Source: a virus. From it: DNA of 64,000 nt. Positions 22,985-43,458 of this stretch are shown here, piece after piece (position 1 is the stretch's first letter; every line of letters starts with the position of its first letter). Made by a program: the position numbers and the translations under genes. The DNA lies in the IMG/VR virus record IMGVR_UViG_3300034107_000446, positions 51,719 through 115,718 of that record; one strand, 5' to 3'. The notes under the pieces are model-generated. The model saw only the letters and a program-made list of their open reading frames with translations. It did no database searches and was not told where the DNA came from.

Positions 22985-23105
22985 TTTTAGTCTCCTTTTT
23001 AATTTCTTCTTTTGTTAATTCAAGTCTGGTAAGTTCATTAATATGATACGGATCAAAGTTATTAATTATGTCTTGTAATAAAGTACCATTAAATAATTTC
23101 TTCAT
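22962..23105 (-). CDS. Small protein overlapping two structural genes
   Basis: 47 residues starting MKKLFNGTLLQDIINNFDPY, helical. It overlaps the upstream gene by 17 bases and the downstream gene by 23, with no strong ribosome site, so translation would depend on coupling. Supported mainly by coding-like composition. Confidence 0.5.
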   Translation of the reverse strand: MKKLFNGTLLQDIINNFDPYHINELTRLELTKEEIKKETKNATMGKN

Positions 23106-24117
23106 TTGTAGCACCAACTTTAACATACATCTTACGCTTAGGTGCTTGGCCAAACTTATATGGTTGTTCAACACGACCTTTTAATTTAGCATCGGCAGTG
23201 GCGCCACCAATCATACGTCCACGGAATTTTTCACGTGTAGAATACTTTGGATTTGCTTCGCGCTCTGCAGCTGATTTGTCTAGATAACTTTTTGCAAGTT
23301 TCTTTGAAATTTCATCAAGTTCAACTTCTTCTTTTAGTGCATTTGCTTTATCACTTAGTTTTTCAGCATATGCGCCAAGTTCTCTTGCGGGATTTATGTA
23401 ATATGCAATATCTTTTGTACCATGTGATAACTGAGCATGTGCAATTTTATGTCTTTCAGCTGCTTCTTTATGTGCGGCTGCAGCGGCAGAATGTGCTCTT
23501 ACATATTCAGGTGCACCCTTTGTTGATTTTTTATCATGAATCTCCATGGTGTCTTTATGAAATTCAACTGCATTCTTAAGAGCGGGAATAGCTCTTTTTA
23601 CATAAGCAGCATCATATGTTTCATCAAGTTCAACTTCTTCTTTTTTGACAGCAGACATGACTTTAGAAATATTCTTTGCTAAAACTGCTGCATTATGCCC
23701 AGGTTTTGGTTTTTTAGCCTCATCAAGTTCTTCATTCTTATTTTTCCAAAACTGGTGATGTCTAGCAGCTGCTTCAAGTGCGTGCTTAGGATTAGCATGA
23801 CCATACTTACTTGAAACAGACATATCTTTGGACGATGATGGACCCTTATCTCTTTCGAAGTGAATACCATATTTAGTTGCATCAGTCCTACTAGTAACAA
23901 TTCTAGCACCAGGTTTTCTTTTTTCATTATATGCGGAATATGGTTCCACTGTTCCAATTTTTTCACCATTATGATGAATTTCGTGAACAAATTTTCCTTC
24001 TGGGTGCTTTGATGTAGGCATTTTCTCTTTTGTTTTTACAAGCGAATAATCACCTGATGTAATAGCAGCCTCATCAAGTTCTATATTTTCTAAAAAGAAT
24101 TTTTTAAAACTCTTCAT
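23089..24117 (-). CDS. Putative capsid-internal protein with leader and LDE motifs
   Basis: 342 residues. The leader MKSFKKFFLE aligns with the T4 internal-protein leader MKTYQEFIAE. LDE occurs at about 15, 130, 165 and 265 (IELDEAA, EELDEAKK, VELDETY, VELDEIS), splitting the chain into segments, each with its own composition: a DHH-like beta segment, a His-rich helix, and a SYLDKSAAER helix. This pattern fits a precursor cut by a prohead protease. No enzyme motif seen. Confidence 0.65.
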   Translation of the reverse strand: MKSFKKFFLENIELDEAAITSGDYSLVKTKEKMPTSKHPEGKFVHEIHHNGEKIGTVEPYSAYNEKRKPGARIVTSRTDATKYGIHFERDKGPSSSKDMSVSSKYGHANPKHALEAAARHHQFWKNKNEELDEAKKPKPGHNAAVLAKNISKVMSAVKKEEVELDETYDAAYVKRAIPALKNAVEFHKDTMEIHDKKSTKGAPEYVRAHSAAAAAHKEAAERHKIAHAQLSHGTKDIAYYINPARELGAYAEKLSDKANALKEEVELDEISKKLAKSYLDKSAAEREANPKYSTREKFRGRMIGGATADAKLKGRVEQPYKFGQAPKRKMYVKVGATNEEII

Positions 24118-24439
24118 TTATTTTAATCCTTAATTTAGTTTTACCAGGTATAATTCTATGATAGACCATTTTTGGTATTTCAATAATATTATTTCTATTT
24201 ATAAAGAATGGTAGTTCATTATCAAATTGGAATTGCCAATCATCACCTTCAAGTATTTGTACTTTTCTAGTATTTAAATCTCTGTGCCAGACATATTCTT
24301 CAGATTCTGTTAGTTCAGGATTAAATTCTCGGATCCATTCTGTATCTGATATTCTTGTATCTGTATATGGTTCATTCACGTTTTCAACTCCACATATTAA
24401 ACTTATAGTCCATTCTATAAAATCCTCTTGGCTTACCAA
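24104..24439 (-). CDS. Small cupin-like protein
   Basis: About 112 residues if the TTG at 24439 after GGAGGTGG is used. The second half has a cupin-like pattern: WHRDLNTRKVQILEGDDWQF and IPKMVYHRIIPGKTKL, a one-domain beta barrel with possible metal-binding His residues. Start uncertain because no ATG fits. It overlaps genes on both sides. Confidence 0.55.
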   Translation of the reverse strand: MVSQEDFIEWTISLICGVENVNEPYTDTRISDTEWIREFNPELTESEEYVWHRDLNTRKVQILEGDDWQFQFDNELPFFINRNNIIEIPKMVYHRIIPGKTKLRIKINEEF

Positions 24440-24978
24440 AAGAATGAGCCACCTCCAGAAAGACCTAGTGCTTTGGCATACATTGGCGTTCTGCAAGCCC
24501 AGTACCCAGGCGCGGTTTTATCTGTTTTAGTAGAGCATTGATGTCTAGCAGCAAATGATTTTCTGGCCGCAGGGTCATTAATCTTGACACTGAGACCTGT
24601 TGTATCACCCCATTGAACCTTTTTTACATTACCAGATGATGGATCTTTGACATAGACATAGAACTTCTTTTCACCGCCACGTTTTGGCTTGCCTAGTTCT
24701 ACTTCACTACCTTTGTACTCTGCTTCCTGTAATGGGAAGTCTAGCGGAACAGTTTCACCTTCATATACATCAAAATCTCCAATATCAGTTTCAAGTAGGT
24801 CCTTTTCAAACCAATCTTTTGGTTCATAAGCACCTTCATTATATAGTCTCTTTGCTTCCATAAAGAGCTTGTTGCTCATTTCAGAGTGAGGACGAAATAC
24901 ATTTTCATAGAAAGGTACTTCATTCTCAACATGATAGGAGATTGCTCTATTGAGAGTGTGTTCCGCTAGAGTTTTCAT
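24433..24978 (-). CDS. Conserved phage protein with ARKSF...C...PGYWxCR motif
   Basis: 181 residues. The C-terminal domain (about 93-181) reads KRGGEKKFYVYVKDPSSG, DPAARKSFAARHQC, KTAPGYWACRTP. I recall this Cys-containing domain in many large phages, always without assigned function. The N-terminal half is helical and acidic (LETDIGDFDVYEGETVPLDF). It lies among putative internal head proteins but lacks the FK leader. Confidence 0.65.
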   Translation of the reverse strand: MKTLAEHTLNRAISYHVENEVPFYENVFRPHSEMSNKLFMEAKRLYNEGAYEPKDWFEKDLLETDIGDFDVYEGETVPLDFPLQEAEYKGSEVELGKPKRGGEKKFYVYVKDPSSGNVKKVQWGDTTGLSVKINDPAARKSFAARHQCSTKTDKTAPGYWACRTPMYAKALGLSGGGSFFW

Positions 24979-24987: not shown

Positions 24988-26301
24988 TTACTTAGATCTT
25001 GGACCAATTTGTTTTTGCTTAAGGTAGGCGCCGACTCTTTGTGCTTGAGTCTGTGGTTTACTTGGAGCTCCAAAGTTTGCTTTCATGTGATCTGCTACTG
25101 CCTTTGTAATTCTATGGGCAGCACCAATAGAAATACCGGCAACAGTTTCAAGATCGTCTTTTGTTTTTGTTCCAAAGTTTTTTGCTTTATGTAGATGATC
25201 TACGATCTTATCGTGTTTTGGATCATCTTTAGGTACAAAAGTGTGTACTACATCTGAAATATTCTCGCGGTGGACTGGATCATTATAGCCTTCAGCAACT
25301 TCTTCTTTCACTGGGCCCTTATATGGTGAGAGGTGCTCATGTTTTGCTCTAACAGTGGTTGTATCATATTTGTTTTTAGGACTTGGGTGTAGTAAGTTCA
25401 CGCTTCCAGTTCTAGCATAAGTAACTGTATGACGTTCACCAGCGTGCGGCCCAGCATGAACTATTACTTGATCACCTTCTTTGAACTTAATATTATGCTT
25501 AGGAACTGTTCCTCTTGCTGGAGTAGGTAAAGTATCACCAACTGGAGCCTTTTGAAATTTTTGGTTCCATGGGTTTTCAGAGAGTTGTTCAACTTCTTCA
25601 GCAACTTCTTCTTTACCAGATGCTTTATCACGGAACATCTTTTGAAGTGTTGCTTTTGCTACGCGCTCAATACCTCTAATCATGTCAGGGTTCTTGACTA
25701 CTTTTCTAAGATTGTTCTTAATCTGTGAGGGATTGTCACCTTTGACATACATCTTTGGAAGACCTTCAACGTCTACTTCGTAGTCTGTTTCTTCATTCTT
25801 ATAAGTTGGACTCTTATAGCCAGCTTCAGAATACCCTGGCCATTTCTTTCCTACATTTTTAGCTTTCCATGTATCTCTAAAGAATTTTTGACTAGCATAT
25901 TCACGATCAGATTGATCTGCAGAAGCTGCTCTATGTATCTTACCTTGTGGACCAAGTAACGGTGCTTCATCAAGTTCAGTTTCTTCACCATACATAGAAG
26001 GATATTCAAAGCCAACATACATTGGTTCTTCTTCATCATATTCATCGGAATCAGTATCCATCATATCATCTTCCATTTCGTCTGCACTCATACTAGTGTA
26101 GACTGATGCAAGCTCTTCCTTTGCTTTCACAATTGCACTAATCTGCCAGCGCTGGATCATTGCTCCATCTTCTAGTCGCTCAAGGATATTGCTTGCTGCA
26201 TAGCAAGCAATCTTCAATTCACTGATAGTCATTTCATCGGCTGGATACATTTCGCCGCCTTCATTAAATAGTTCTTCTGTGAGTTCTTTAAATCTCTTCA
26301 T
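24988..26301 (-). CDS. Putative capsid-internal protein with leader and LDE motifs
   Basis: 437 residues. The leader is MKRFKELTEE, a variant of the shared leader with L-T-E as a possible cleavage site. A helical bundle (about 20-80) is followed by an acidic stretch, TELDEAPLLG near 113, a KOW-like beta segment (KEGDQVIVHAGPHAGERHTV) and a C-terminal helical domain (VAGISIGAAHRITKAVADHM). The KOW-like part suggests nucleic-acid contact. Probably head-internal, cut into pieces. Confidence 0.6.
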   Translation of the reverse strand: MKRFKELTEELFNEGGEMYPADEMTISELKIACYAASNILERLEDGAMIQRWQISAIVKAKEELASVYTSMSADEMEDDMMDTDSDEYDEEEPMYVGFEYPSMYGEETELDEAPLLGPQGKIHRAASADQSDREYASQKFFRDTWKAKNVGKKWPGYSEAGYKSPTYKNEETDYEVDVEGLPKMYVKGDNPSQIKNNLRKVVKNPDMIRGIERVAKATLQKMFRDKASGKEEVAEEVEQLSENPWNQKFQKAPVGDTLPTPARGTVPKHNIKFKEGDQVIVHAGPHAGERHTVTYARTGSVNLLHPSPKNKYDTTTVRAKHEHLSPYKGPVKEEVAEGYNDPVHRENISDVVHTFVPKDDPKHDKIVDHLHKAKNFGTKTKDDLETVAGISIGAAHRITKAVADHMKANFGAPSKPQTQAQRVGAYLKQKQIGPRSK

Positions 26302-26302: not shown

Positions 26303-26503
26303 TTATCCTCTGTGTTTAAAATATTGTATTCTACGTTCTACTTTATTGAACCATTCTTTGGAAGGTTTTCCATCACCTTGATAATACTGTAAAACTTTAG
26401 AAGGATCGGATTTGCTTACAACAGCCCATTTTGTTTCGCCTTCAGGTGTTTTAACTTGTTTAAGCATTTCATCTAATGCTAAAAATGATTTAAACGAGAT
26501 CAT
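26303..26503 (-). CDS. Small putative internal protein
   Basis: 66 residues with the shared leader (MISFKSFLALDE), then a compact basic domain (GETKWAVVSKSDPSKVLQYY) that could bind DNA. It sits between two larger leader-bearing genes with 1-2 base spacers. Size and charge resemble T4 internal proteins. Confidence 0.65.
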   Translation of the reverse strand: MISFKSFLALDEMLKQVKTPEGETKWAVVSKSDPSKVLQYYQGDGKPSKEWFNKVERRIQYFKHRG

Positions 26504-26505: not shown

Positions 26506-27561
26506 TTAAAACTCCTTAATCATTTTTTCTTCGGAAGGCATCTTCATCATAGAACCATCTGCCAATTTAACATTCTTAAATCTTGTCGGATATTGGAAGA
26601 ATAGGTTACCTCTGGCACTATATTTGTAAATAACACTACTTTCTAATGTAAAACTACTAGAATCTTCAAATGTAAACTTCATGGTATTTTCTACCATTCC
26701 ATTACGAATATTAGTCTTTACTATTTCGTGTGATTTAGGTTGACCTTTCTTCTGAAGGATCAAAGCAAGTTTGGAAGTATTCTTAGAAACAAACCCATCA
26801 ACAATTTCGGATACATTATTCTCGATTAGTTTCTTAATTCTTGCAACTGCGTCTGGCATCTTTTCAAGATACTTCTTGCCTTCTTTTGTTCTCACAATAA
26901 AGATTGTAGTTGCAACAAGTTGGGATGTTTCATCTTTTGGTAGATCAGGACCACGAGTAATGTCACGAATATTTTCATATGCTGTCATAATTTGACTTGT
27001 GACACTTTCCTTCAATTCAGTTTTAAATGAATCGGTGGCTTCCTGCATGAATTTAAATGCAGATTTTGTCGCATCAAATGAAGCAAGAGGTTTTATAAAT
27101 TGACCTGGTTTTGGTTCTTTCGGTGGCTTGCCTTTTTGAACATAACCTTTGATTACACTTAGTGCTTCTGGTATATCTTTTACGGAATTAAAAAATGTTT
27201 TTAATTGTGAAGGCAGATCAGTTATCTTTGCTGTATCTTTGATTGCCTTCTTAATATCACCAGCAGTATAGATTGAATATGGTATTTTTTCAGATGCATC
27301 TCTATTGGATTGGCGATAATCTATAATTGTTTTTGAAACTATATCATATGTTAATCTGACAATATTAAGTAAACCAGATGAAGCTTCGGTAAATCTTGCA
27401 TTGTAAATTGATTTATCTTCTGCTGCCTTTATAAGTATATCTAGATATTCAACACCTTTGGTTTTATATCTATCGCTAACCATATTTAAAATAGGTTTTA
27501 CTTTTGCAAGCGCGGTGCCTGCTTCAGAACTTTCAACAATATATGATTTAAATGTAAACAC
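26506..27561 (-). CDS. Putative capsid-internal protein, unknown fold
   Basis: 351 residues from a GTG at 27561, eight bases after AAGGAAG; this start yields the leader MFTFKSYIVESS, with I-V-E/S as a good prohead-protease site. The rest is alpha-rich with a beta C-terminus (SSSFTLESSVIYKYSARGNL). No known domain. The leader match is what supports the GTG choice over an upstream ATA-rich start. Confidence 0.65.
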   Translation of the reverse strand: MFTFKSYIVESSEAGTALAKVKPILNMVSDRYKTKGVEYLDILIKAAEDKSIYNARFTEASSGLLNIVRLTYDIVSKTIIDYRQSNRDASEKIPYSIYTAGDIKKAIKDTAKITDLPSQLKTFFNSVKDIPEALSVIKGYVQKGKPPKEPKPGQFIKPLASFDATKSAFKFMQEATDSFKTELKESVTSQIMTAYENIRDITRGPDLPKDETSQLVATTIFIVRTKEGKKYLEKMPDAVARIKKLIENNVSEIVDGFVSKNTSKLALILQKKGQPKSHEIVKTNIRNGMVENTMKFTFEDSSSFTLESSVIYKYSARGNLFFQYPTRFKNVKLADGSMMKMPSEEKMIKEF

Positions 27562-27562: not shown

Positions 27563-28099
27563 TCAATCTTCCTTGTAATATGGGTTTTTAGGATCAGTAT
27601 CACCAGTTACATCCGGCCACCAATCTAATTCAAACCTTTTACCATCGGCGAACATTTTTTTCATAGATTTGATACGTGTTTCATATTCTGATTTAGAAGG
27701 AGTTATATTTCCTTCAACAACATCTATTACATACTGTATTGTAACTGCGTTAGCACTCAAACTAGCACATCTAGCACCAACTTCACCCTTTAAATGGTCT
27801 ATTAAAATACTCTCACTACTTTTAGCAAGATCATCTGATAAATCATGCGATACCTTTAAATCTACATAAGAATAAACATAATCATAATGTGGTAGTGGAG
27901 ATGAATGTAAAATAAACTCATCTAATACTTCAATTCGTTTAAACCCATCTTTATTATACCAAATTGCTCTCTTACTGGTTAATTCGGTAGGCATACCAAA
28001 GAATTTTTGGAGCTGTTTTACGTAATTAGCAGGTTCAGTATTTTCCCACTGATTTAAAATAGAATTAGATTCTTTAATATATTGTTTAAAACCTATCAT
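27563..28099 (-). CDS. Putative capsid-internal protein, 178 residues
   Basis: Leader MIGFKQYIKESN with I-K-E/S. The remainder is alpha/beta (FILHSSPLPHYDYVYSYVDL) and has no named motif. Overlaps the next leader-bearing gene by four bases, implying coordinated expression of the set. Confidence 0.65.
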   Translation of the reverse strand: MIGFKQYIKESNSILNQWENTEPANYVKQLQKFFGMPTELTSKRAIWYNKDGFKRIEVLDEFILHSSPLPHYDYVYSYVDLKVSHDLSDDLAKSSESILIDHLKGEVGARCASLSANAVTIQYVIDVVEGNITPSKSEYETRIKSMKKMFADGKRFELDWWPDVTGDTDPKNPYYKED

Positions 28100-28506
28100 A
28101 CTTTTAGCACCGGGTTTGGAGTAGAGAAGTTCTTCTTGCGCATGATAGTTTTTGCAATAACAACTAAATCATCACTTTTGCGATCATATTCAACTGCGAT
28201 TGGCATATTTAGGTCACTTTGAAGATCCTTTACTACTGCCTCTGCATCTACAAATTTACTAAGTGACTTTTCACCGTGTTGATACTTCTTATAGATCTTT
28301 TGGATCATAGCAGCAAGTTCTTTCATGTCGATGCAAGGATCATTTCGTGAATCTGTCATACGCTCACGGAAGTGCTTTGTGAAGTCAAAGTCAATATTAA
28401 ACTTTTCGAACATCTTGTCAACAAACTTTTCAAATGCCTTCATATGTTCGGTAGTTAGTATTGGGCATGTTTCTGCTTCTACTACAAATTGCTTAAATCT
28501 TAGCAT
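28096..28506 (-). CDS. Putative capsid-internal protein with RelE-like outline
   Basis: 136 residues. Leader MLRFKQFVVEAE, cleavable after V-V-E. The body runs FTKHFRERMTDSRND, then IYKKYQHGEKSL, then VEYDRKSDDLVVIAKTIMRK, a helix-then-beta order like small RelE/ParE-type or phage nuclease-like domains. That assignment is weak. Its stop overlaps the start of the next gene upstream by one base. Confidence 0.65.
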   Translation of the reverse strand: MLRFKQFVVEAETCPILTTEHMKAFEKFVDKMFEKFNIDFDFTKHFRERMTDSRNDPCIDMKELAAMIQKIYKKYQHGEKSLSKFVDAEAVVKDLQSDLNMPIAVEYDRKSDDLVVIAKTIMRKKNFSTPNPVLKV

Positions 28507-31175
28507 TATTCTCCGTCTCCGCTTCCGCCATCTGAACTACTACTTTTGCCACCTGGAACTGATTTTAGTTTTCCATCCATTGTTCTGATTTTTGTATTTG
28601 GTACATCAATCATCTTGCCTTCAAATCCTCTTGCTTTACCTTCGAGGAATGTTTCAAATTTTTCATCAACACTTTCAAATGCAACACCAACTTTAGTATG
28701 TTTTGCTTCTTTTTCATACTTTTTTCTCATTTTTGATGTTGCTTCGCCTGGTGTCTTTGTTTTATCAAATGAAGGGTCTGCAACAAGCTCACCGCCACCA
28801 ACTGATTTAGTATCTTGTGCATCAACATCACCGTCACTATCTGTATCTTTACTTTTGAGAGCATGTTGTATCATTTGCTTTAGATTAAGACCAACACCAA
28901 GGTGGTGCTGATTGTGCTTTGAAACTAGAGCTGAAATATCAGGTGTTGCTGGTTCTACAAAGTCTGGTACAGTAGTCTTAGAGTGCTTGAGTGGTGGAAC
29001 ATATTTTATTTCATCTAATTCACCTGGTGTATCACTTTTTAGTATTCTAACAAGACTATCAGTACCATCTTCTCTATTAGTAGCTTTTGATTTGTCAATG
29101 TTTATCTTGAATGATTCCCAAGCATCAACATTACTATATGCCTTTTCATAATGTTTTGCATTTTTAATTCTATGGTAAAGTTTTACAAGATCGGCTGAAG
29201 TCATTGCCATATTATGAGACTTGACTACTTTTTCCGCATGATGCGTGTGATCACCCGGACCTGCATTTTTAACAAGTTCAGAGAAATCTTTAAGAGCTTT
29301 TGCCATCTCTCTATGCTTCTTCTCACGTGCAATAATCTTATTAATGATTTCAGATGATTCTGTATTCAATGAACGGCGGGTTGAATCAACCTTACGAGCA
29401 TTATCAAGCATATTCTTGTGCTTTTCAGCATCAGCATCTTTTTCTCTCGATATAGAAGCCCTTACCATATCCAGCGCATTACCTTCTTGGACACAGTTTG
29501 GAACCATTCTATTACCTTTTTTCTTTAGACCGATTTGTTTATAACCGTCCCAGCAATCTTCCTCTACCGATTCTTTGCGAACTTTTGCTGCTAGATCAGC
29601 GTCAGCTTTGCCCCAGGTTCCAGGTCCTTTTGTTGCAAAGCTATTGACTCTGGCATAACCCCATTGTTCTGGAGTTGTTCCTGGTCTGTGACCTGTTCTC
29701 CAAGCAGCAACCCCGCGATCAAATACCTTCTTTAGAATACCATATGAAATACCAGTTTTCTCTGCCTTTTTCTTTAAACCCTCTTTTGGTTCTTCGAATA
29801 TCATTTCTACTGAATTAATAAGATCATCTAATTCTTCAAAATATACTTCGGTTGATTCATAGATATTGACTTTTGGTTTATATCGCTTAAATCTCATGTC
29901 GTGTTTGACAGTACCTTCTTTATTAAAGATTTGGTGAAATCTTTTTGTGTGCATAGAAGGTTTTGTTTTAGCACGAGCATCACCCGGTGCTGGTTTATAT
30001 GCAGCAGGATTATTATCATCCATTGCGGCACCTTTATTAAAATGTGCTTGTCTTTTTGCTATCGTTGATTTTGAGAGTCCGGCATGATAGTCTTTATTTA
30101 GATTGGCGGACTCCAGCATAAAATTTTCAAGAAATATCTCGAATTGATCATCAACACTTTCAGTTTTAGATCTGGACATCGCGCTTATACGGTCTGATTC
30201 TGCTTTGCGTACAATTGGTAATTGTTTGGTTGCAATTCTATTAATAACTGACTGTGGTATTCTAGATAATCTTTGATCTAGTGATAATTTTTCAGCAGAT
30301 GACATGTCACCATACGATTTAGTTTTTGAAATTTTAGCACGAAGAATTGCTAGTGCTTTCTTTTGTGCCCGATCTTTGATTTTTTCTGGTGATGCTCTTC
30401 TCTTTTGTGCTCTCTTTCTTGCAGCTTCAATCTTACCATGATATCGTTTCATGACCATCGAGCGCTTGAGTCTTTGCATAAATGTAAGAGGAGTTACCTT
30501 TTCTTCTAAGGTTTCATCTTCAAAGTCTTCCATTAATTTCATTCCCTTTAAAATTGCTTTATATACTTCTTCGGCATGTGATTTTAATTTAGAAGGAAGT
30601 CCCTTCTTGAATGTTTCAAAGTCACCTTCTACTGCAAGTGATCTTAATTTTGAAGCAGACATTCCAGAAACATCATCTGCATCAGGATCTCTTTCACCTG
30701 CTGAGACAACATCTATAGTTTTAAAGTCAAATTCTTTGCCATTATATTTGTCAAGTAATGTCTGAAATTCTAATACTCGATCAGATCCTACTACAGCAAT
30801 AAGTGTATCATATTTGCCAGACAGTTCTTTTGCTACTTCAATAATTGTTCTTGCAGTTGTCCTTTTAACTAATGACCCAAACGCAGTTTGAAGAAAGTTT
30901 ATCTTTTCATCATATGTAAGTGGATTTTTCTTCTTATCATATGTATGTGATGTAAATACCATAGGATCTGCTTTACGAGAAACAGCAACATCTTTTATCT
31001 TATTTACAAGTTTTTCGTGCCCTACTGTTGGGGGTGAAAATCTTCCAAAGGTCAATACAACTGATTTATTTTTAGCTTCAGACATTGTTCTGTCACTCAA
31101 TGTTGGCTCAATGTCTATATATTTCTTTGGATCAAAGCCTTTAGGATTTATTTTTTTTACTGATTTCTTTTCCAT
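28506..31175 (-). CDS. Large multi-domain protein: nucleotidyltransferase head plus processed-type tail
   Basis: 889 residues. Residues about 37-215 are a cytidylyltransferase/NMN-adenylyltransferase-like domain: LTFGRFSPPTVGHEKL (T-x-G-H motif at 50-53) and SGMSASKLRSLA as the second nucleotide motif. Then come a basic helical domain (about 230-345), FEIFLENFMLESANL (near 350), a domain with KKAEKTGISYGILKKVFDRG and GHRPGTTPEQWGYARV, an ELDEI motif and a final FETFLEGKARGF. The repeated FExFLE motif resembles the FK leader of its neighbours and could mark cleavage sites of a polyprotein. A TATAAATA box lies 34 bases upstream. Confidence 0.75.
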   Translation of the reverse strand: MEKKSVKKINPKGFDPKKYIDIEPTLSDRTMSEAKNKSVVLTFGRFSPPTVGHEKLVNKIKDVAVSRKADPMVFTSHTYDKKKNPLTYDEKINFLQTAFGSLVKRTTARTIIEVAKELSGKYDTLIAVVGSDRVLEFQTLLDKYNGKEFDFKTIDVVSAGERDPDADDVSGMSASKLRSLAVEGDFETFKKGLPSKLKSHAEEVYKAILKGMKLMEDFEDETLEEKVTPLTFMQRLKRSMVMKRYHGKIEAARKRAQKRRASPEKIKDRAQKKALAILRAKISKTKSYGDMSSAEKLSLDQRLSRIPQSVINRIATKQLPIVRKAESDRISAMSRSKTESVDDQFEIFLENFMLESANLNKDYHAGLSKSTIAKRQAHFNKGAAMDDNNPAAYKPAPGDARAKTKPSMHTKRFHQIFNKEGTVKHDMRFKRYKPKVNIYESTEVYFEELDDLINSVEMIFEEPKEGLKKKAEKTGISYGILKKVFDRGVAAWRTGHRPGTTPEQWGYARVNSFATKGPGTWGKADADLAAKVRKESVEEDCWDGYKQIGLKKKGNRMVPNCVQEGNALDMVRASISREKDADAEKHKNMLDNARKVDSTRRSLNTESSEIINKIIAREKKHREMAKALKDFSELVKNAGPGDHTHHAEKVVKSHNMAMTSADLVKLYHRIKNAKHYEKAYSNVDAWESFKINIDKSKATNREDGTDSLVRILKSDTPGELDEIKYVPPLKHSKTTVPDFVEPATPDISALVSKHNQHHLGVGLNLKQMIQHALKSKDTDSDGDVDAQDTKSVGGGELVADPSFDKTKTPGEATSKMRKKYEKEAKHTKVGVAFESVDEKFETFLEGKARGFEGKMIDVPNTKIRTMDGKLKSVPGGKSSSSDGGSGDGE

Positions 31176-31208: not shown

Positions 31209-31216
31209 TATTTATA
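31209..31216 (-). promoter_or_regulatory. Late promoter box
   Basis: TATAAATA on the minus strand, 34 bases before the ATG at 31175, in a non-coding gap between the sugar island and the internal-protein operon. Confidence 0.7.
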
Positions 31217-34783: not shown

Positions 34784-35673
34784 TTTTGTATCCTTCTTGC
34801 CTGATAGATATCACTAATCATATTGTCATTATTAGCAATACCATTTATAAATGCTTGTTTAGCCATTTCTAAACCAGGCATTTGTTTAATTTTTAATTCA
34901 ATTCCATTTTTACAATTTTCAAATGAAAAGTTTTCATCTATTGGTTTATCAATATTTAAAACATTACAGCGACCATCTAGATAATTTAAAAGCAATTTTG
35001 AACCAGCAATAAAAATTTGTCGTTGTTTAATCGGAGATACCCAACTACATGTAATAGTTGCTCTAAAACCACTTTCAAATTTTAAATTTATTATAGCGTG
35101 ATCTGATAATATATTTACATGATAATTCTTTATTTCAGTCTTAGAAATAAGTTTTTGATTTGGAAAAAGAAAATCAATGATACTCAAATCATGAATTGCT
35201 AAATCATATAGTACATCAACATCCGGTTGAAATAGACCTTGGTGTAATCTATAACTTTCAAAATATAAAGGTTCACCAAAATCAATATTTTCTTTTATGT
35301 GTTGTATTGTAGAGTCATGGCACATAATATGATCAACAAAAACTTTTACTCCCATGTTCTCAGATAGAACAATAAGTTCATTTATTTCAGTTAAAGATGT
35401 GCACGCAGGTTTTTCAATCCACACATGTTTGCCTGTTACTATTGCCTTTTTAGCAAAATCAAAGTGTGTAGCAGCTTTTGTCGCTATAAGTACTGCTTTG
35501 ATATTAACATCATTTAATGCTAAATCAAAATTATCATAAATGATTGCATGTGGATATAATTCTTTTAATTGTGGATGTATTGAGTGATTAGATTCACATA
35601 TAGCATATAATTCTTTATTGAATGTTCTTGCTATATTTTTACCCCAATAACCATGACCTAATAATAAAAACAT
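34771..35673 (-). CDS. Gfo/Idh/MocA oxidoreductase (GnnA/WlbA-like)
   Basis: 300 residues. The Rossmann loop is at the very N-terminus (FLLLGHGYWGKNIARTF), EKPACTS is the catalytic-lysine signature and LYDLAIHDLSIIDFL carries the conserved His. It oxidises C3 of a UDP-sugar with NAD, feeding the aminotransferase next door. Together the two genes resemble GnnA/GnnB. Confidence 0.87.
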   Translation of the reverse strand: MFLLLGHGYWGKNIARTFNKELYAICESNHSIHPQLKELYPHAIIYDNFDLALNDVNIKAVLIATKAATHFDFAKKAIVTGKHVWIEKPACTSLTEINELIVLSENMGVKVFVDHIMCHDSTIQHIKENIDFGEPLYFESYRLHQGLFQPDVDVLYDLAIHDLSIIDFLFPNQKLISKTEIKNYHVNILSDHAIINLKFESGFRATITCSWVSPIKQRQIFIAGSKLLLNYLDGRCNVLNIDKPIDENFSFENCKNGIELKIKQMPGLEMAKQAFINGIANNDNMISDIYQARRIQKWLE

Positions 35674-36261
35674 TTAATTTAACTTTCGAAGTTGTTGATA
35701 TCTATTTATTTCAACGTCTAACATTGCTTCATCTATACTATTTCTAGTCAATGCAATTGTATTTTTCTTTAAATATTTTGCAGGTGAACCAACGTATGTA
35801 TTTCCTGGTAATATTGTACTCTTTTTAGTAACAATTGTTCCCATACCTAACATTGAATAAGATCCAATCACTTGAAATTGGTGTATCATACAACCAAAAC
35901 CTATATTAGCATTTTTCATTATTCTACAATGCCCGCCGATCTGCACGGAATTTGATATAGTAGTATTATCTTCTACTATGCAATCATGTGCTACATATGA
36001 ATACATCATTAAATAATTATTAGAACCTATTTCAGTTACTTTAGATAAAACAGTTGGTTTATTTATTGAACAATACTCTCTAATAACATTGTTATTTCCT
36101 ATCTTTACAATGCCGTCAGATTTCTCTCGCATATGAACAGCATCAAACCCAATTGTAACATAGGGGTATATTATATTACCTTTACCTATGTCAACTACAT
36201 CCCATTCAATTATTGCAGTTTCATGAATTAGATTACCATTTATCTCTTTAAACCCTTGCAT
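35674..36261 (-). CDS. LpxA-like left-handed beta-helix acyltransferase
   Basis: 195 residues from the ATG at 36261, after GAGG and overlapping the previous gene. Hexapeptide repeats run from about 12 to 160; YSYVAHDCIVEDNTTISNSV holds the catalytic His of LpxA, and GCMIHQFQVIG matches the LpxA HQF region. It is shorter than bacterial LpxA (about 260), with only a short C-terminal helix. With GnnA/GnnB-like neighbours it may acylate GlcNAc3N for lipid A, or act like WlbB on an O-antigen sugar. Confidence 0.82.
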   Translation of the reverse strand: MQGFKEINGNLIHETAIIEWDVVDIGKGNIIYPYVTIGFDAVHMREKSDGIVKIGNNNVIREYCSINKPTVLSKVTEIGSNNYLMMYSYVAHDCIVEDNTTISNSVQIGGHCRIMKNANIGFGCMIHQFQVIGSYSMLGMGTIVTKKSTILPGNTYVGSPAKYLKKNTIALTRNSIDEAMLDVEINRYQQLRKLN

Positions 36262-37216
36262 TTTTTTCCTCAAAAAATTTATATGCTGCTTTATATAATA
36301 AACCTTTTCCAATATCATCATAACTAAAATGCGACATTGCTAAACGCTCTAACCATTCTTGTCTATTATCTGGCATATCTGGATTTTCAATTAAACCAAG
36401 ATTTATATTTGACATAGGATATGCTTGACTCTTTTTTGGATCAAGATCTAATAAAAATACAGGTATACCTTCAATAGTACTAACAACTGAAGGTGAACTA
36501 TTATATACTATACAGCACCATGCATCTTTTAGATCTTCTTCTATTCTAGTATTTGATGTTGCACGAATCATATTTTTAATTTTTGTTTTGTAACTTGCCA
36601 TCACATGTTCAACTGCAGTATGTAACCGCCCATCACCTGGGTGTTTTCTTATTACTATTTTTCTATCTGTGACTTTAGATATATCCAAAATAGTTTGTGT
36701 TAACCAGTTAATAATACCTTTTTCATAATTAAATGAAAATCCATTTGTTCTTTGTAAACACAAAAGAACATGATTACCTGATTTTCTCCAAGGCTTTACC
36801 TCGATAGATAAATCTTTCTTTATTGTTTCCCATCTAGTTTTATCAACATCTCTATCAAAATAGTAACCGGTATTTGCATACACACCATCCATACTATATC
36901 TTAGATAATTATATCTATATGATTGATCTTTATAGACAAAAAGACTATTATCAATAGCCATAACATGATTTGAAGATTTTAATTGCTTATTTATTATTTC
37001 CTTTTTAAACATTTTTATACTGGTTTTAGCAGGTTTTTCACCTGCAATAGATTTTCTTTCTGTCATCCAACTATATATTATTGCTAAATCGGATTCACTG
37101 TAATTTATTTCTTTTATTAATCTACTATTTGGAAATGTTTTAATAATATCATCATATTTTTTAAATTTACCATTTCTATCAGTTGATGAATATACATTAG
37201 TACTAAAATGTTGCAT
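36248..37216 (-). CDS. Capsule/Kdo-transferase-like protein
   Basis: About 322 residues from the ATG at 37216 (TAATG overlap). The C-terminal half shows a GT-B-like pattern, VLLCLQRTNGFSFNYEKGI, DRKIVIRKHPGDGR, and DAWCCIVYNSSPSVVSTIEG, similar to capsule-synthesis or Kdo transferases that hold the donor between two Rossmann domains. With KdsA elsewhere in the window, Kdo is a reasonable donor, but this is inferred. Confidence 0.65.
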   Translation of the reverse strand: MQHFSTNVYSSTDRNGKFKKYDDIIKTFPNSRLIKEINYSESDLAIIYSWMTERKSIAGEKPAKTSIKMFKKEIINKQLKSSNHVMAIDNSLFVYKDQSYRYNYLRYSMDGVYANTGYYFDRDVDKTRWETIKKDLSIEVKPWRKSGNHVLLCLQRTNGFSFNYEKGIINWLTQTILDISKVTDRKIVIRKHPGDGRLHTAVEHVMASYKTKIKNMIRATSNTRIEEDLKDAWCCIVYNSSPSVVSTIEGIPVFLLDLDPKKSQAYPMSNINLGLIENPDMPDNRQEWLERLAMSHFSYDDIGKGLLYKAAYKFFEEKNARV

Positions 37217-37746
37217 TATTTTCTCACTATAAACCAAGATTTTGCAAAAAAAACTTTTTCACAGTAATCTTTTTCTTCTTTAAAACTGTGTGCTACACAC
37301 ACTCTTTTTTCGTGCCATGAAAATGTTTCTTTCCAATCAAATCCATAAACCTTTACTTCTTTTGGATCCGAACGATATACATAATCCAGAACTCTTAATC
37401 CAGTCGAAGGTTTTTTACTTAAATTAGATGAAAGTTCTTTACACATTTCTTTGGTATATACCAAATCTACCAAATCTATAAAATGCGGAGATACATCGAT
37501 TGTATCCATCTGCATTTTATGTGCTTTAGTTCTGGTTACAAATGGCTTATTTTGTCTGCCATTCTGCATACACCAGACATCAAGTTTAGTGCCCATTTGT
37601 ACCGGAAAATCTGAGAACCTATAACCGCCTCTGTTAATACGAACTACTACTTCGGCTTGATCTATTTCTTGACCATATCGCTGTCTTATAAGAGATTCAG
37701 CATTCCCAACAATAGCAACTGTTTTACCTTCAAACCATTCTTTCAT
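37216..37746 (-). CDS. GT29 sialyltransferase-like protein, third copy
   Basis: 176 residues, first gene of the sugar island: KTVAIVGNAESLIRQRYGQE with IDQAEVVVRIN, KPSTGLRVLDYV with VKVYGFDWKET, and the VS-like AHSFKEEKDYC. Here the VS motif has H-S-F in place of H-D-F. All three copies start MKE-W/L-F-E-G-K-T. Confidence 0.82.
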   Translation of the reverse strand: MKEWFEGKTVAIVGNAESLIRQRYGQEIDQAEVVVRINRGGYRFSDFPVQMGTKLDVWCMQNGRQNKPFVTRTKAHKMQMDTIDVSPHFIDLVDLVYTKEMCKELSSNLSKKPSTGLRVLDYVYRSDPKEVKVYGFDWKETFSWHEKRVCVAHSFKEEKDYCEKVFFAKSWFIVRK

Positions 37747-38784: not shown

Positions 38785-40602
38785 TTATACCCAGGCAAAA
38801 TACTGTATAGTAGTTGCGCCTTGGTCAACGTTACCGCCATAGTTATGAAACTCTATACTAAGTGTATCTGCAGCAGAAACCCATGCTCCTGCGATCATTA
38901 ATCCATAAGGTAATGCAGTTCCAGAAGTTATCACAATTTTGTGATTAGTTGTTAATCCGCTTACAGTAAACGTTAATGTACTAGCTGATGTTTTATTAAT
39001 TGAAGCAGGGTCTATTGATACAGAACCAGCAAGTATACTAGTGGCAGCAGAAAGATTTGTAGAAGTAGTAGCAGTGTTTGCATTACCATTAATTGAACCA
39101 GAAATAGTATTTGTGACTGTTAGATTAGTCAATGTACCTACTGTGGTTAGACTACTTGTAACTACATTGCTTGCTAGTGTCGTTCCAGTAATATTAGCAG
39201 CTGCTACTGAACCGGCAGTTCCTGACACATTCCCAGTAACATTACCCGATAATACCTTACCCGATTCGAGTGTAATCCCTATGCTGTCTACTGTTGCAAT
39301 TTTGGCAAGTGTAGTAGAGTTTAATGGGGTAGTCCACAACTCAATGGCACCGCCGTGATTAGTCAATGTTTGATTTCCAATTGCCTTGTAAATAATCCGA
39401 GTATTTCCAGCGCCTGGGATAGATGTACCGTCATGCGCTGTTCCACTGATACGCATGATCTCTTCGTCAGCCAATACTGCTGTAGGAGCGGCAACTGTAC
39501 CGTTAAACCGACGAGCAACAAATGCTGCAAACGCATTTTGACTATCATTGTAAATTCTTGATGGGATTCCAGGAGTATCATACTGTCCTGTTATGTGTAG
39601 CATAACTCCAGTGTTGAGAGGAGATATAAATGCGCCAGTTGCACTACCTACTATACTCACGGCACCTTCGATACTATCAATAGTTGGCACCAACATCTTA
39701 ACTTGACCATCTGATTTGACTGCAAACACTGGCTCTTCTTCTAAAATCTCGGTAAGTGATCCATTAGTTGGGTGTACATGAAATTGTCCAACTACGTTAA
39801 TACTGCCAATGCCATTGGATGCAATAACTACATCTTCATCATCATTTATTGCTTTTAGAATGGCATATTCGGTATTAGATGTATATGTACCTACTGTGGC
39901 TGCAAAATCACCGAATGAGAAATCTAATCCAGTAGAATCAATAATAATTTGATCTTGATCATTAACTGTAACACCTGGGCCCAGTTTAACACCGCCAAGA
40001 TCTGTATTAGTTGCTACTATAATCTGTAACGCGTTAGAACCGTCAATCTCAAATGCTTGTCCTATTTTTATTCCACCGAGTACTGTTGGTGATGCAACAG
40101 AAAGAGTAACTTCATTATCTGTATTCAGGTAAAGACCATCGCTGATTCCTACAGTATCAAAATAGAATTTTCTAGTATTTTGATCATATGTTAAATATTT
40201 GTTTAATCCAACAGATGCTGAATTAATATCATCTAATCTAGCAAATTTAACTTCACCGCCACCACCCATGGTTGACATCTGCTGTTGGATTCGCTGCAGG
40301 AATAGACCATAATGGTCGTCCATTTCCTTAAATGTTATAAACTTTTCAGTAGAACTTTTACGAAGTGGGTCATCCCATCTTTGCTTTTCAATATTTGCAG
40401 GTGTTGCAGGAATATCATCACTCTTTTTAGTAAGATATTTTGCAGTTTTTTGTGCAATTGTTTCTTCTTCATTCACTTGAATATTAGTTTGCGGAGTTAA
40501 ACTAATACTAGTTTCTTTTGATTCTTTAACTTCTTTAATCTCTTTATTTTGAAGTTTATTAGCTTCAGCAAGAAGTTTTTTAAATTCGTTTAGTGCGCTC
40601 AT
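38785..40602 (-). CDS. Fibre-like virion protein
   Basis: 605 residues from the ATG at 40602 (ATGA overlap with the ligase-like gene). The N-terminus is MSALNEFKKLLAEANK, with L-A-E/A as a possible cleavage site. Long beta-repeat regions follow (LGGIKIGQAFEIDGSNALQI, LGGVKLGPGVTVNDQD), then an Asn/Thr/Gly-rich segment (GKVLSGNVTGNVSGTAGSVA) as in phage tail fibres and a C-terminal beta domain. Probably a fibre or whisker that touches the host surface. Confidence 0.72.
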   Translation of the reverse strand: MSALNEFKKLLAEANKLQNKEIKEVKESKETSISLTPQTNIQVNEEETIAQKTAKYLTKKSDDIPATPANIEKQRWDDPLRKSSTEKFITFKEMDDHYGLFLQRIQQQMSTMGGGGEVKFARLDDINSASVGLNKYLTYDQNTRKFYFDTVGISDGLYLNTDNEVTLSVASPTVLGGIKIGQAFEIDGSNALQIIVATNTDLGGVKLGPGVTVNDQDQIIIDSTGLDFSFGDFAATVGTYTSNTEYAILKAINDDEDVVIASNGIGSINVVGQFHVHPTNGSLTEILEEEPVFAVKSDGQVKMLVPTIDSIEGAVSIVGSATGAFISPLNTGVMLHITGQYDTPGIPSRIYNDSQNAFAAFVARRFNGTVAAPTAVLADEEIMRISGTAHDGTSIPGAGNTRIIYKAIGNQTLTNHGGAIELWTTPLNSTTLAKIATVDSIGITLESGKVLSGNVTGNVSGTAGSVAAANITGTTLASNVVTSSLTTVGTLTNLTVTNTISGSINGNANTATTSTNLSAATSILAGSVSIDPASINKTSASTLTFTVSGLTTNHKIVITSGTALPYGLMIAGAWVSAADTLSIEFHNYGGNVDQGATTIQYFAWV

Positions 40603-41825
40603 CTTTGCCATCCTTTGATATATTCAGGTGAGAAGTTTGCTTTGCTAAATTGCAATCTATCTACTAATTTCAGTGCATTTTTACCGAGATGATCAATAGC
40701 AACAAAACCTTCTTGACCTGTTACTTCATAGCCATCCTTGGTTTTAAGAAATGTTCTCATATTATTTACTCTATTGAGTTTATCCAATAGTATGTACTTA
40801 ACTTCGTCTACAATATTATAGATACGGAAAACATCGACAACATCAGACCCATGTTCCTTGAAGTATGAAAGTATCTCATCACGCTTTTTAAATGAAGATT
40901 CTTTACCAGCATCTGACTTCTTTTTGTCTGCGTCTTTCTGATAATAATCTTCTATATATTTAATCATATCAGCGATAAATTTCTTGGGGTCACCGATTCT
41001 CTGGCCTTCTCTCACTTTGACATTAATGAAAGCATTAACACGGATTCTACGCTCTTCATTATCTGAAAGTCCATCCAATACTGGTCTTTTTATCTTTGCA
41101 AATATTTTTCCTGCATCTGAAAGAAGAGCAGTTACGTGCTTTGTTTCTTCAGCAGTCATTGTAGCACTACCAGAAACATCCTTAAATACAGCATCAACAG
41201 ACCAGACAGTTTTTACTTTTTTGAGATTTGTTGCAATCTCCTGTCCAAAACTCGCTGACATTGATTCAAAAGAGTCTCCTCCGTATGTTGTGTGCCATAC
41301 CACACCGATTTTGGATCCAAGTATTTGTTTAGCAAGATCGCTTGTTTTTGGTACCGCATAAACAATCGTGTTAGGATGAAAAGTAATATACGATTCTCCA
41401 TCAATGTTAACTTCTTTAATATCTTCGCGCGCATAAAGAAAATCACCCTGTATCACGCCCTTAATACCAAGTTTTGGCAACTCAGCAAGAGCTAATTTCA
41501 ATTTTGTGTTTAAATCACCTGATGTATCTGCATCAACGTCTGCATTAGTTTTATAGACTTTTGGGTTCTTGTTAAAGATACCTTTCTTTGCCACAAAGAA
41601 TTTACCATCAGTTGGATCAATACCTGCAAAAACTGCAGGGGCACCATCCCACTTAGTAGAAATATTCATTGGGGTTTTAGTATGACCGGCAAGTGTATCT
41701 CTTAGAACTCTCAAATGATTAATTGCTTGACGAGTACCTTCAACACCGCCATCAATGATTGCATCAGCAAGATGCACCATATGTGAATTTTTTTCTTCTT
41801 CTAGATACTGTTTGAATGATAGCAT
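40599..41825 (-). CDS. Ligase-like nucleotidyltransferase with capsid-targeting-type leader
   Basis: 408 residues. The leader MLSFKQYLEEEK is followed by a nucleotidyltransferase core: STKWDGAPAVFAG (57-69) holds K58-x-D-G, the motif I lysine of DNA/RNA ligases and capping enzymes; KFFVAKKGIFN and GIKGVIQGDFLY fit motifs III and IV. The C-terminal half is helical (YIEDYYQKDADKKKSD). It may seal nucleic-acid nicks or transfer nucleotides. It lies next to a HAD phosphatase with the same leader, suggesting an end-repair pair packaged in the head. Confidence 0.75.
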   Translation of the reverse strand: MLSFKQYLEEEKNSHMVHLADAIIDGGVEGTRQAINHLRVLRDTLAGHTKTPMNISTKWDGAPAVFAGIDPTDGKFFVAKKGIFNKNPKVYKTNADVDADTSGDLNTKLKLALAELPKLGIKGVIQGDFLYAREDIKEVNIDGESYITFHPNTIVYAVPKTSDLAKQILGSKIGVVWHTTYGGDSFESMSASFGQEIATNLKKVKTVWSVDAVFKDVSGSATMTAEETKHVTALLSDAGKIFAKIKRPVLDGLSDNEERRIRVNAFINVKVREGQRIGDPKKFIADMIKYIEDYYQKDADKKKSDAGKESSFKKRDEILSYFKEHGSDVVDVFRIYNIVDEVKYILLDKLNRVNNMRTFLKTKDGYEVTGQEGFVAIDHLGKNALKLVDRLQFSKANFSPEYIKGWQR

Positions 41826-42430
41826 TATACTTTCCTTACCGATCCATCATGTTGGACATGATATGCTTCGAATGTTATATTAGGATAATTTTTTGCAAGA
41901 GCCTTAAACATAGTAATATTGGGCATTGCATCATCAAAGAACCTGACTCTTTCATATTTACCACCACGCAAGTATTTATGGAAAATAAACCTCTTGTTTT
42001 TAGCAGATGAACCAAGGTTTAGATTACCTGATCGTTCGACATAAACTTTGTCAATGTCAATTCCATATCTACGGAATGTATCAAGGAACTTGTTCTTGTT
42101 ATCAAAATCTGGTCTTGCAGTGACAATAATAACCTTTGATCCCACATTGACTGCATTCTTAATAATTGCCTTTGCTTTTTTGATCATAGACCAAATTGGA
42201 ATTGAAGTATCGTGAAAAATTTCGGCACTTCTAAATTCACCATAGTCGTATGTTTCACCTGGTTTTATTTTATATTCATTGTATTGTTGATTGTCAAGGG
42301 TTCTTACTAGTTTTCCGTCTTTCATTATCTTGACGAGTGCTTTAGTACGAAATAGAGTCTCATCAATATCAAATATTGTGAGACCCTTTCCATTAGATTG
42401 CTCAGTAATGAATTGTTTAAATGATTGCAT
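41825..42430 (-). CDS. HAD-superfamily phosphatase with capsid-targeting-type leader
   Basis: 201 residues. The leader MQSFKQFITE (I-T-E, a classic T4 prohead protease site) precedes a HAD domain: IFDIDETLF (D21-x-D23 nucleophile and acid), KVIIVTARPDF (motif II) and VRFFDDAMPN (motif IV). The layout recalls the 3'-phosphatase half of T4 polynucleotide kinase, but no kinase P-loop is present. It overlaps the ligase-like gene by one base. Substrate unproved. Confidence 0.8.
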   Translation of the reverse strand: MQSFKQFITEQSNGKGLTIFDIDETLFRTKALVKIMKDGKLVRTLDNQQYNEYKIKPGETYDYGEFRSAEIFHDTSIPIWSMIKKAKAIIKNAVNVGSKVIIVTARPDFDNKNKFLDTFRRYGIDIDKVYVERSGNLNLGSSAKNKRFIFHKYLRGGKYERVRFFDDAMPNITMFKALAKNYPNITFEAYHVQHDGSVRKV

Positions 42431-42447
42431 TTATTTACTACTTTAAA

Positions 42448-43458
42448 TTATACTAATTTACCAGTTTGGAGGCAAGTACTCCCTATAGAAGAAAGTGGAT
42501 CACTTTGAGACTGAAATTTATGGGTCTGTGTTGCAAATTTCTTATCGTTGTGATAAAAACTAGTAATAGAACCATTTGTTTTTACTGTAATATTTTTAGG
42601 ATCATTAAGAATGTGTTCATGTTCTGATTCTGGGTGTGAGGTATGATGTTGGATACCTTTGGCAGTTTTATATGTAGTATGTTTTATAAAATTATGACCT
42701 GCATTTTGTAAAGGTGTATTTCTTGCCTTTAAAACATCACGAATGTGATTAACCACTTCTTTATGTTGTCCGCTATCTAATTTTTGTTGTAATTCAGCGC
42801 CGTGTTCACCTGCAATAGTACGTAATAATTTTTTATTGCGGCTTATGATATCAGCTTTTACTGCCGGATTTGAATTTAATTCTGCTTTTCTATCATCTCT
42901 ATTATTTTTATTTAAGTTAGGATAGTCTTTAAGAATATCACTTTTATGTTTTTCGTGCATTTCTTTAGCTTTGGAACCAGCAGATTCAATACCTAAATTA
43001 GAAGTTGTTATATTTTTATTAGAATTATCAGATACTTTTAGACTAACTCCGTGATATGTCGGTTTATCTGAAGATTTCTTTTTAGTATGAATCATAAGAT
43101 CAGAAGGATCTTCTTTTTGAGTAGAATGAATACCAGTAGATCTATGTATGTCACCAGGTTTTGAAGTCCATTGAACTTGGTGTATTGTATGGCCCGCAGG
43201 TAATTTTGTTTTTATGTTGTCTGCTGCCGCTTTAGCTCTATCATTTGCTTTTTTATAATCATCAGGGTGCATTGAAGCTTTTAATTTATCATGTGCTTCT
43301 TCTGGACTATAACCATTTGAATCTTTATGGTGAGTCATGTGTTTACCACCGTTTAAATGATATCCAGTTAATAATTCATGCATGACACCTTTAGTATTAT
43401 TAGAAACAGAATTTTTAGTTTCCTCATCAAGATGCATAAAAGATTTAAATCTCAACAT
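42448..43458 (-). CDS. Putative nuclease-like internal protein
   Basis: 336 residues. The leader is MLRFKSFMHLDEE. Near residues 118-145 DPSDLMIHTKKK and YHGVSLKVSDNSNKNI give a D-x(n)-x-x-K pattern like PD-(D/E)xK nucleases. The rest is very His/Lys/Asn-rich, in keeping with DNA packing in the head. A late promoter box lies 24 bases upstream. T4 internal protein I blocks a host nuclease, so offence or defence roles are both possible. Confidence 0.6.
   Translation of the reverse strand: MLRFKSFMHLDEETKNSVSNNTKGVMHELLTGYHLNGGKHMTHHKDSNGYSPEEAHDKLKASMHPDDYKKANDRAKAAADNIKTKLPAGHTIHQVQWTSKPGDIHRSTGIHSTQKEDPSDLMIHTKKKSSDKPTYHGVSLKVSDNSNKNITTSNLGIESAGSKAKEMHEKHKSDILKDYPNLNKNNRDDRKAELNSNPAVKADIISRNKKLLRTIAGEHGAELQQKLDSGQHKEVVNHIRDVLKARNTPLQNAGHNFIKHTTYKTAKGIQHHTSHPESEHEHILNDPKNITVKTNGSITSFYHNDKKFATQTHKFQSQSDPLSSIGSTCLQTGKLV

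Follow-up and report, generated by a model that had tools for sequence, protein, structure and literature searches.

Do the proteins that share a short N-terminus in this stretch of viral DNA (64,000 nucleotides of IMG/VR record IMGVR_UViG_3300034107_000446, positions 51,719 to 115,718, referred to here as the window) form a cargo that is packed into the phage head and passed on to the next host? A check of the open reading frames (ORFs) and their translations found that nine proteins, all encoded on the minus strand at the places given in the original prediction, open with M-x-x-F-K-x-[FYL]; their genes lie in two blocks, 43458-40599 and 28506-23089 (Table 1, in which ORFs are named by their lower coordinate). 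Our analysis suggests that this N-terminus, called the leader here, is very probably a capsid-targeting sequence of the T4 type, by which tagged bodies would be packed, freed by the gp21 protease and taken into the host with the DNA. Packaging and cutting of the leader proteins in this phage are likely, since the binding and cutting steps are backed by the columns that are kept, by virion data from relatives and by the presence of the protease. Injection we infer from the analogy with the internal proteins of T4.

Mutants of T4 have assigned residues 4 and 7 of its leader to targeting and residues 8 and 10 to processing, with gp21 cutting after L/I-x-E, according to the portion of the source available (PMC9026906). 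The kept columns of the present leader agree closely with these targeting and processing residues. The original prediction claimed an exact alignment with T4 at positions 4, 7 and 10, which held in part: residue 7 is F or Y in eight of the nine window leaders and L in one, whereas glutamic acid stands at residue 10 in only seven, 26303 and 42448 carrying L-D-E at residues 10-12 instead. A strict L/I-x-E lies inside the first 16 residues of eight leaders, and V-x-E takes its place in the ninth (28096). E10 and K5 are not general features of the leader. The gene at 26506 does possess the leader form (MFTFKSYIVESS), though from a GTG start at 27561, its longest frame opening upstream at 27603. 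Three leader proteins have 66-178 amino acids and six have 201-437, small and basic being the trait of the T4 internal proteins. With T4 IPI, IPII and IPIII the set shares a ten-residue N-terminal leader, hydrophobic residues 4 and 7, the L/I-x-E site, a virus that encodes a gp21 protease and a core of the gp22 type, and bodies that are mutually unlike. Unlike T4, nine such proteins (66-437 amino acids) occur in one window, three of them with enzyme-type folds or profiles, polyproteins are present besides, K is favoured at residue 5, and packaging and injection are predicted.

Could short N-termini of this kind agree by chance? Their short length is the only point in favour. The record and the first 37.8 kilobases (kb) of a contig of the same virus (G001) were pooled, giving 243 mechanically picked ORFs, and residues 2-25 of each ORF were permuted in 1,000 shuffles. 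Ten first starts match M..F[KST].[FYLMI], where the shuffles gave 0.75 +/- 0.86 (maximum 5), and seven match M..[FYL]..[FYLMI]..E, where they gave 0.96 (maximum 4). One of the 10 matching starts is that of the gene in the gp67 position, outside the window, and another, 51274, probably does not belong to the set. Taken with the internal-start null and the podovirus control described below, the shuffles leave chance a negligible probability.

Conservation at each position was analysed in DUF6267, the family of 40599, for which 80 IMG/VR loci gave 73 N-termini at the expected distance, 52 of them distinct. Column 4 holds F (43), L (5), K (2), Y (1) and T (1), column 7 holds F (28), Y (20), L (3) and I (1), and column 8 holds L (31), I (18) and three others. 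Column 10 holds E (50) and Q (2), a glutamic acid count that may be slightly raised because one of the six patterns used to fetch the loci overlaps residues 9-16. Columns 2, 3, 6 and 9 are thus variable while 4, 7, 8 and 10 are kept. The full pattern fits 49 of the 52, the remaining three being one residue shorter with E at position 9. As aligned, the leader glutamic acid is invariant in 32 of 32 DUF6267 proteins, down to 37% identity. One locus (L044, 4726-5970) carries a DUF6267 leader with a doubled cut segment, FITEDFITEE, apparently a tandem duplication.

Profile search of the window's own record (115,718 bases) found neither the gp21 protease nor the gp23 capsid protein; this record is a fragment. 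G001, an IMG/VR contig of 137,360 bases that is 99.94-100% identical over the overlaps, runs on into terminase, portal, a gene of 709 amino acids, gp21, gp22 and gp23. The virus therefore has the T4-type machine that the targeting idea needs. The 709-residue gene, located between portal and gp21 in the position of gp67, bears the leader too, so that the look for gp21, gp22 and gp67 elsewhere in the genome, suggested at the outset, was answered on G001. The gp21 protease was matched in seven of seven named phages examined, T4 included, which serves as a proper positive control; the built-in control genomes of the search tool gave no match for the protease or capsid family. By DUF6267, among 60 of 435 matches listed, the nearest named relatives are Stenotrophomonas phage DLP6 (54% identity) and Phage C48C1 (53%), followed by Methylophilales phages (Melnitz, 46%) and then cyanophages and pelagiphage HTVC008M. 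The motif TATAAATA, which we take to be the T4-type late promoter, stands 30-60 nucleotides before five of eight G001 head-block genes (gp18-like, gp67-position, gp21, gp22 and gp23) and was not seen before the gp19-like, portal or gp68-position genes among these eight. Across the window the gene strand carries 11 copies, some of them preceding other genes, and the opposite strand carries two; the copies before the first gene of each cargo operon are listed in Table 1. The proposed likeness to T4 capsid targeting is thus supported by head genes, the invariant glutamic acid, late promoter motifs and the leader matrix described next.

Virion data exist for relatives of this virus. In cyanophage S-CREM2, 52 virion proteins were identified by mass spectrometry (PMC10665884, Table 3). 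The T4-spaced pattern M..[FYL]..[FYLM]..E matches six of 219 S-CREM2 proteins, and five of the six are in that list, namely gp6 (annotated SAM hydrolase), gp13, gp14 (APH-like kinase), gp136 and gp154 (cytidylyltransferase). The Fisher p-values of 0.003 overall and 2e-4 without the 24 annotated structural proteins are not blind, since the pattern was written after the N-termini were seen. A matrix built from the nine window leaders only, though after the same look at S-CREM2, ranked these five proteins first among the 219 (scores 12.7 to 4.4; next gp175, 2.8). Applied to 293 T4 ORFs, the matrix placed two MKTYQEF proteins and a 95-residue MKTFKEF protein at 73.6 kb at ranks 3-5, which we take to be IPIII, IPII and IPI. 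A profile search for leaders in other phages, as had been proposed, thus recovers both virion proteins of S-CREM2 and internal proteins of T4. T4 gp61.1 (L012, 18966-19130; 54 amino acids, MKTFKEFIKE) has the top leader score of the 293 and is possibly an overlooked internal protein. In the podovirus control none of 53 proteins (from 58 annotated coding sequences) reached the threshold of 4, the best scoring 3.8. The cytidylyltransferase of S-SM1 starts MKKFSAFLNE and is taken as the one reported in that virion in the available part of the source (PMC3037559), and the kinase of S-CRM01, present in the virion according to PMC10665884, starts MISFDQFLSE. S-CREM2 gp12 (L007, 7704-10313), a virion protein whose annotation as Cas9 looks doubtful, has a leader-like LRFASFMAEA at residue 17.

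The virion data also bear on the idea that the leader has nothing to do with the head and instead serves assembly or localisation, for instance by binding a replication or membrane complex, its likeness to T4 being convergent. Cargo operon 1 does come after a DnaB-like replicative helicase gene (43696-45141, phrog_19), the leaders are short and simple, and many relatives lack them. A signal of this kind is, however, made improbable by the presence of the leader on virion-detected proteins of S-CREM2, S-SM1 and S-CRM01 and on the gp67-position gene, and by kept columns that match the T4 targeting and cleavage residues.

Analysis of all ORFs at the 80 DUF6267 loci revealed that 168 of 1,341 distinct ORFs score at least 4 as leaders, 58 of these belonging to the bait family; with the same matrix an internal-start null gave 41 of 10,002, a comparison that favours the leader because the best start within 40 residues was taken per ORF and single internal starts for the null. 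At least one leader ORF is present in 67 of the 80 loci. After the first 15 residues, the bodies of leader proteins fall into 36 clusters without a BLAST link at 1e-4, 17 of them with at least two members. Pfam searches with 20 representatives of the other leader clusters gave a clear match to one domain, HD_4, and a weak match to ParB_N, and PHROGs matched five of ten representatives, all to families of unknown function. Inheritance of the leader from one duplicated ancestral gene, without present function, would suit the adjacency of several tagged genes. It is rendered very improbable by the 36 unlinked body clusters, by columns 4, 7, 8 and 10 holding while 2, 3, 6 and 9 vary, and by nucleases whose leaderless and leader-bearing forms differ by the leader alone.

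A ligase-like enzyme, a HAD phosphatase and a possible nuclease had been predicted among the cargo, and each gained support. The ligase-like protein 40599 matches PF19782 (DUF6267) at E 1.6e-107, and K58-x-D60-G61, E372-G373 and K386 are invariant in 32 of 32 family members. The fold claims for 40599 and 42448 rest on VIA because Foldseek alone was weak (no E under 0.001 for 40599; a HinP1I/MspI-type core fold for 42448 with probability 1.00 and E 1.1e-3). For 40599 every one of the 50 VIA rows listed is an RNA or DNA ligase (best Z 8.8, root-mean-square deviation (rmsd) 3.5, 180 aligned) and 42448 gave Z 9.1 to HinP1I (rmsd 4.4, 218 aligned) and 7.4 to MspI, 8.8 and 9.1 being, by VIA's own note, only slightly above the reach of unrelated models. 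In the AlphaFold model of 42448 (pLDDT 90.7), as in that of 40599, residues 1-15 are under 50, which might fit a cleavable tail.

Protein 41825 matched phrog_415 (polynucleotide kinase, PNK) at E 3e-9 and PF03767 at E 8e-6, just under the family cut-off, and FDIDET (DxDxT) was read in its sequence; it looks like a PNK-phosphatase-like HAD protein. No tblastn match to it was found in 50,697 phage records at 1e-5, and searches of PDB sequences gave nothing useful, with no match for 41825. In five contigs of relatives, some nearly alike (L065, L069, L097, L099 and L102), a leader-bearing P-loop protein adjoins the ligase or lies within 300 bases of it. The ligase fold, the PNK-like HAD protein and this P-loop neighbour suggest a nucleic-acid end-repair set. 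It shares its fold, KxDG and a PNK-phosphatase-like neighbour with RNA ligases (Naegleria RNA ligase, T4 Rnl2 and Rnl1) and PNK-type end repair, and differs in that it would be pre-packed and not made after infection. No fold or function could be assigned to the other six of the nine leader proteins.

Protein 42448 looks, from its model, like a restriction-endonuclease-fold nuclease nearest HinP1I and MspI. D120 and S139-x-K141 are invariant in 26 of 26, serine standing where the catalytic D...(D/E/Q)xK has D, E or Q. Leader-bearing nucleases read FKGYITE/MANTDSADINEI, and leaderless forms begin at that methionine, as MTANT or MASNT, as if in this family ten residues had been added upstream of an older start codon to make the leader. 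No palindromic tetranucleotide proved strongly depleted in the record (CCGG, at 0.60 of expected, and GTAC, at 0.68, are the lowest, and GCGC is over-represented at 1.37), nor was a C5-methylase found when looked for there. In Melnitz (L004-L006) GATC and CGCG are almost absent (23 versus 498 and 1 versus 61 expected).

Several proteins also carry internal sites of the form E-E-x-x-[LI]-D-E, a pattern that allows two or three residues between and was written after the sequences were seen. In the pooled gene set 14 sites occur in seven proteins, against 0.26 in shuffles (maximum 3 in 300): four in the gp67-position protein, two each in 18363, 19044, 21380 and 23089, and one in 24988. The remaining site, near the end of 45194, was judged to be chance. 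By eye, the residues that follow several of the sites resemble one another (SKKTLGSYIKKA is an example), and such stretches are common to the gp67-position protein and window proteins. Scans of S-CREM2 and T4 ORFs found no such site, and Melnitz has three. The set is thus larger than originally predicted: the nine were confirmed, and the polyproteins at 18363-21976 and the gp67-position gene are to be added. These polyproteins with repeated E-E-x-x-L-D-E would be cut by gp21 into several pieces, like gp67 and gp22 of the T4 prohead core, with which the gp67-position gene shares its place between portal and gp21 and the repeated protease-like sites. It differs from T4 gp67 in its 709 amino acids, its leader, its four EEVELDE sites and the like sites in proteins encoded far away. 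Analysis of domain boundaries revealed the C-terminal domain of 24433 at 19 distinct junctions, directly behind a leader in two (L076 and L066) and after linkers or inside polyproteins in the others; 13 of the junctions have glutamic acid at -1 and the other six have it at -2, and 18 of 19 show [LIVM]-x-E, counts made by eye that carry no computed chance level. In some relatives of 28506 the domains of 28096 or 24433 are fused to the cytidylyltransferase polyprotein. A single weak PADLOC match of 28096 to Csn2 (E 0.005) was judged to be chance.

The polyproteins lend some weight to the view that the leader is a capsid-core tag whose bearers serve head assembly only, like scaffold, and are not injected or are inactive in the host. 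Their sites and module-like stretches are found in the gp67-position protein too; in T4, moreover, IPIII affects head assembly and the pieces cut from gp22 and gp67 are for the most part eliminated, as the available part of the source has it (PMC9026906). Invariant catalytic-type residues of the ligase-like and nuclease-like proteins, enzyme-type folds and the variety of the cargo nevertheless fit injected effectors better. A role in head assembly alone is possible but doubtful, and for the polyproteins it may well be right.

Under the preferred reading, a packed and injected cargo, hydrophobic or aromatic residues 4 and 7 would bind the prohead core, and tagged proteins would be built in with gp22 and the gp67-position protein. 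gp21 would then cut after [L/I/V]-x-E (residues 8-10 or slightly later) and release the body, which would stay in the head with the DNA packed over it. The freed proteins would enter the next host along with the DNA, as in T4, and the predicted enzymes would act before any phage gene expression, most plausibly in mending cuts inflicted by the host on RNA or DNA and in blunting defence. In relatives the cargo would add a P-loop protein, a cytidylyltransferase, an APH-like kinase and a protein annotated as SAM hydrolase. Injected T4 Ip1, Ip2 and Ip3 block type IV restriction, according to the available part of PMC12373910. The earlier claim of an injected enzyme set wider than that of T4 is supported as to the leader likeness and the enzyme-type folds or profiles, while injection would follow by analogy. 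Packing by such a tag in T4 is already known; the wider, enzyme-bearing tagged set predicted here and the polyproteins would be new.

Compared with other systems, the virion enzymes of T4-like cyanophages (NMNAT/cytidylyltransferase, APH-type kinase and SAM hydrolase) are similar in that a related cytidylyltransferase is encoded in the window and the leader type matches on detected proteins of S-CREM2, S-SM1 and S-CRM01. Published accounts of them, in the parts available, name no targeting signal and do not exclude contamination, whereas the leader offers a mechanism. The ejection proteins of phiKZ-like giant phages (SPN3US), likened by description only and from part of the source, are many head proteins of which some are cut by a prohead protease. 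In the literature searched, capsid targeting was linked with cyanophages only in a T4 review, with 'cyanophage' in a reference title; journal coverage was partial, and this is weak evidence of absence. A broader proposal, about evenly poised between right and wrong, is that phages of the T4 superfamily, across many hosts, have in common an open, modular delivery system in which any gene gaining the leader would become virion cargo, and in which an injected enzyme kit (RNA ligase, PNK-type kinase and phosphatase, restriction-fold nuclease, cytidylyltransferase and kinase) and protease-cut peptides would start repair, counter-defence and host attack before phage gene expression. A ten-residue tag readable from sequence would turn many unknown T4-type phage proteins into predicted injected effectors, would offer a cheap direct test of their role and would explain the recurrence of enzymes in cyanophage virion lists. 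If phages do inject an RNA-repair set or package a restriction-type nuclease, the first minutes of infection would have to be seen differently.

Besides the limits stated with the fetch patterns, the internal-start null, the VIA scores and the 24433 junctions, several observations weigh against the cargo reading. Most distinct nuclease relatives lack the leader, and one of the two patterns that fetched them is the leader itself. Confinement of leaderless nucleases to phages without gp21 was considered and failed, as five of 12 searched contigs not called leader-bearing have gp21 and gp23; four of these (L155, L162, L171 and L191) hold clearly leaderless forms and L182 is ambiguous. A phage can therefore keep such a protein out of the head. 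Neither gp21 nor gp23 was found in any of the five leader-bearing nuclease contigs searched, all pieces of 28-80 kb. S-CREM2 gp175 (55 amino acids) fits the pattern and is absent from the virion list in Table 3 of the source. Beyond its top the matrix is a weak predictor of virion presence (area under the curve 0.57, p 0.12, 195 non-structural S-CREM2 proteins), because most S-CREM2 virion proteins of unknown function lack the leader. DUF6267 of S-CRM01 and, as called, of S-SM1 has no leader, and the authors of the S-CREM2 study, in the part available, considered that some virion proteins could be carry-over (PMC10665884). Glutamic acid is at -1 in only four of ten junctions of the 28096 domain. 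Among the nine leader genes only 42448 has TATAAATA within 70 nucleotides; its absence from the other eight is expected because they lie inside operons, which is not proof.

Table 1. Leader proteins, related proteins and promoter motifs of the window (a slash marks the predicted cut or domain boundary; aa, amino acids).
ORF or motif	Coordinates	Strand	Leader or site	Description	Match
42448	42448..43458	-	MLRFKSFMHLDE/E	Leader protein, nuclease-like, 336 aa; first gene of cargo operon 1	HinP1I/MspI-type fold
41825	41825..42430	-	MQSFKQFITE/Q	Leader HAD protein, polynucleotide kinase/phosphatase-like	phrog_415, PF03767
40599	40599..41825	-	MLSFKQYLEE/E	Leader DUF6267 protein, RNA-ligase-like, putative covalent nucleotidyltransferase	PF19782, motif, fold
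28096	28096..28506	-	MLRFKQFVVE/A	Leader protein, 136 aa; elsewhere a domain of cytidylyltransferase polyprotein	
27563	27563..28099	-	MIGFKQYIKE/S	Leader protein, 178 aa; no family found	
26506	26506..27561	-	MFTFKSYIVE/S	Leader protein, 351 aa, GTG start; no family above cut-off	
26303	26303..26503	-	MISFKSFLALDE/M	Leader protein, 66 aa	
24988	24988..26301	-	MKRFKELTEE	Leader protein, 437 aa; one internal EETELDE site	
23089	23089..24117	-	MKSFKKFFLENIELDE/A	Leader polyprotein, 342 aa; two internal EEVELDE sites	
28506	28506..31175	-		Cytidylyltransferase-type polyprotein, 889 aa, without N-terminal leader; kin of cyanophage virion protein	phrog_3041 cytidyltransferase, E 1.6e-92
24433	24433..24978	-	PLQE/AEYKG	181 aa, without strict leader; C-terminal domain begins after the site	
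21380	21380..21976	-		Polyprotein with two internal [LI]DE sites and a module resembling one in the gp67-position protein; outside the originally predicted span	
19044	19044..19766	-		Polyprotein, two internal LDE sites; outside the originally predicted span	
18363	18363..19019	-		Polyprotein, two internal LDE sites; outside the originally predicted span	
TATAAATA	43482..43489	-		31 nucleotides before 42448 gene (cargo operon 1)	
TATAAATA	31209..31216	-		41 nucleotides before 28506 gene (cargo operon 2)	

Inspection of the neighbouring genes by eye found, between the cargo blocks (31234-37746), glycosyltransferase-, aminotransferase- and oxidoreductase-like genes and three related 'MKE(W/L)FEGKT..GNA' genes, an island that perhaps makes a surface sugar. 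A transfer-messenger RNA (tmRNA) was predicted by ARAGORN at window 55205-55616, with the tag ANENFAPKAFALAA and an asterisk taken to mean permuted; Melnitz is annotated with a tmRNA too. RecA/UvsX-like and ribonucleotide reductase genes at 45194-47581 and 9147-12164 are in pieces with intein-like ends, beside homing-endonuclease-like ORFs. In one related locus (L003, 3631-5130 and 5695-6765) nicotinamide phosphoribosyltransferase-like and NMN adenylyltransferase-like genes, assigned by eye, form a possible pair for rebuilding nicotinamide adenine dinucleotide.

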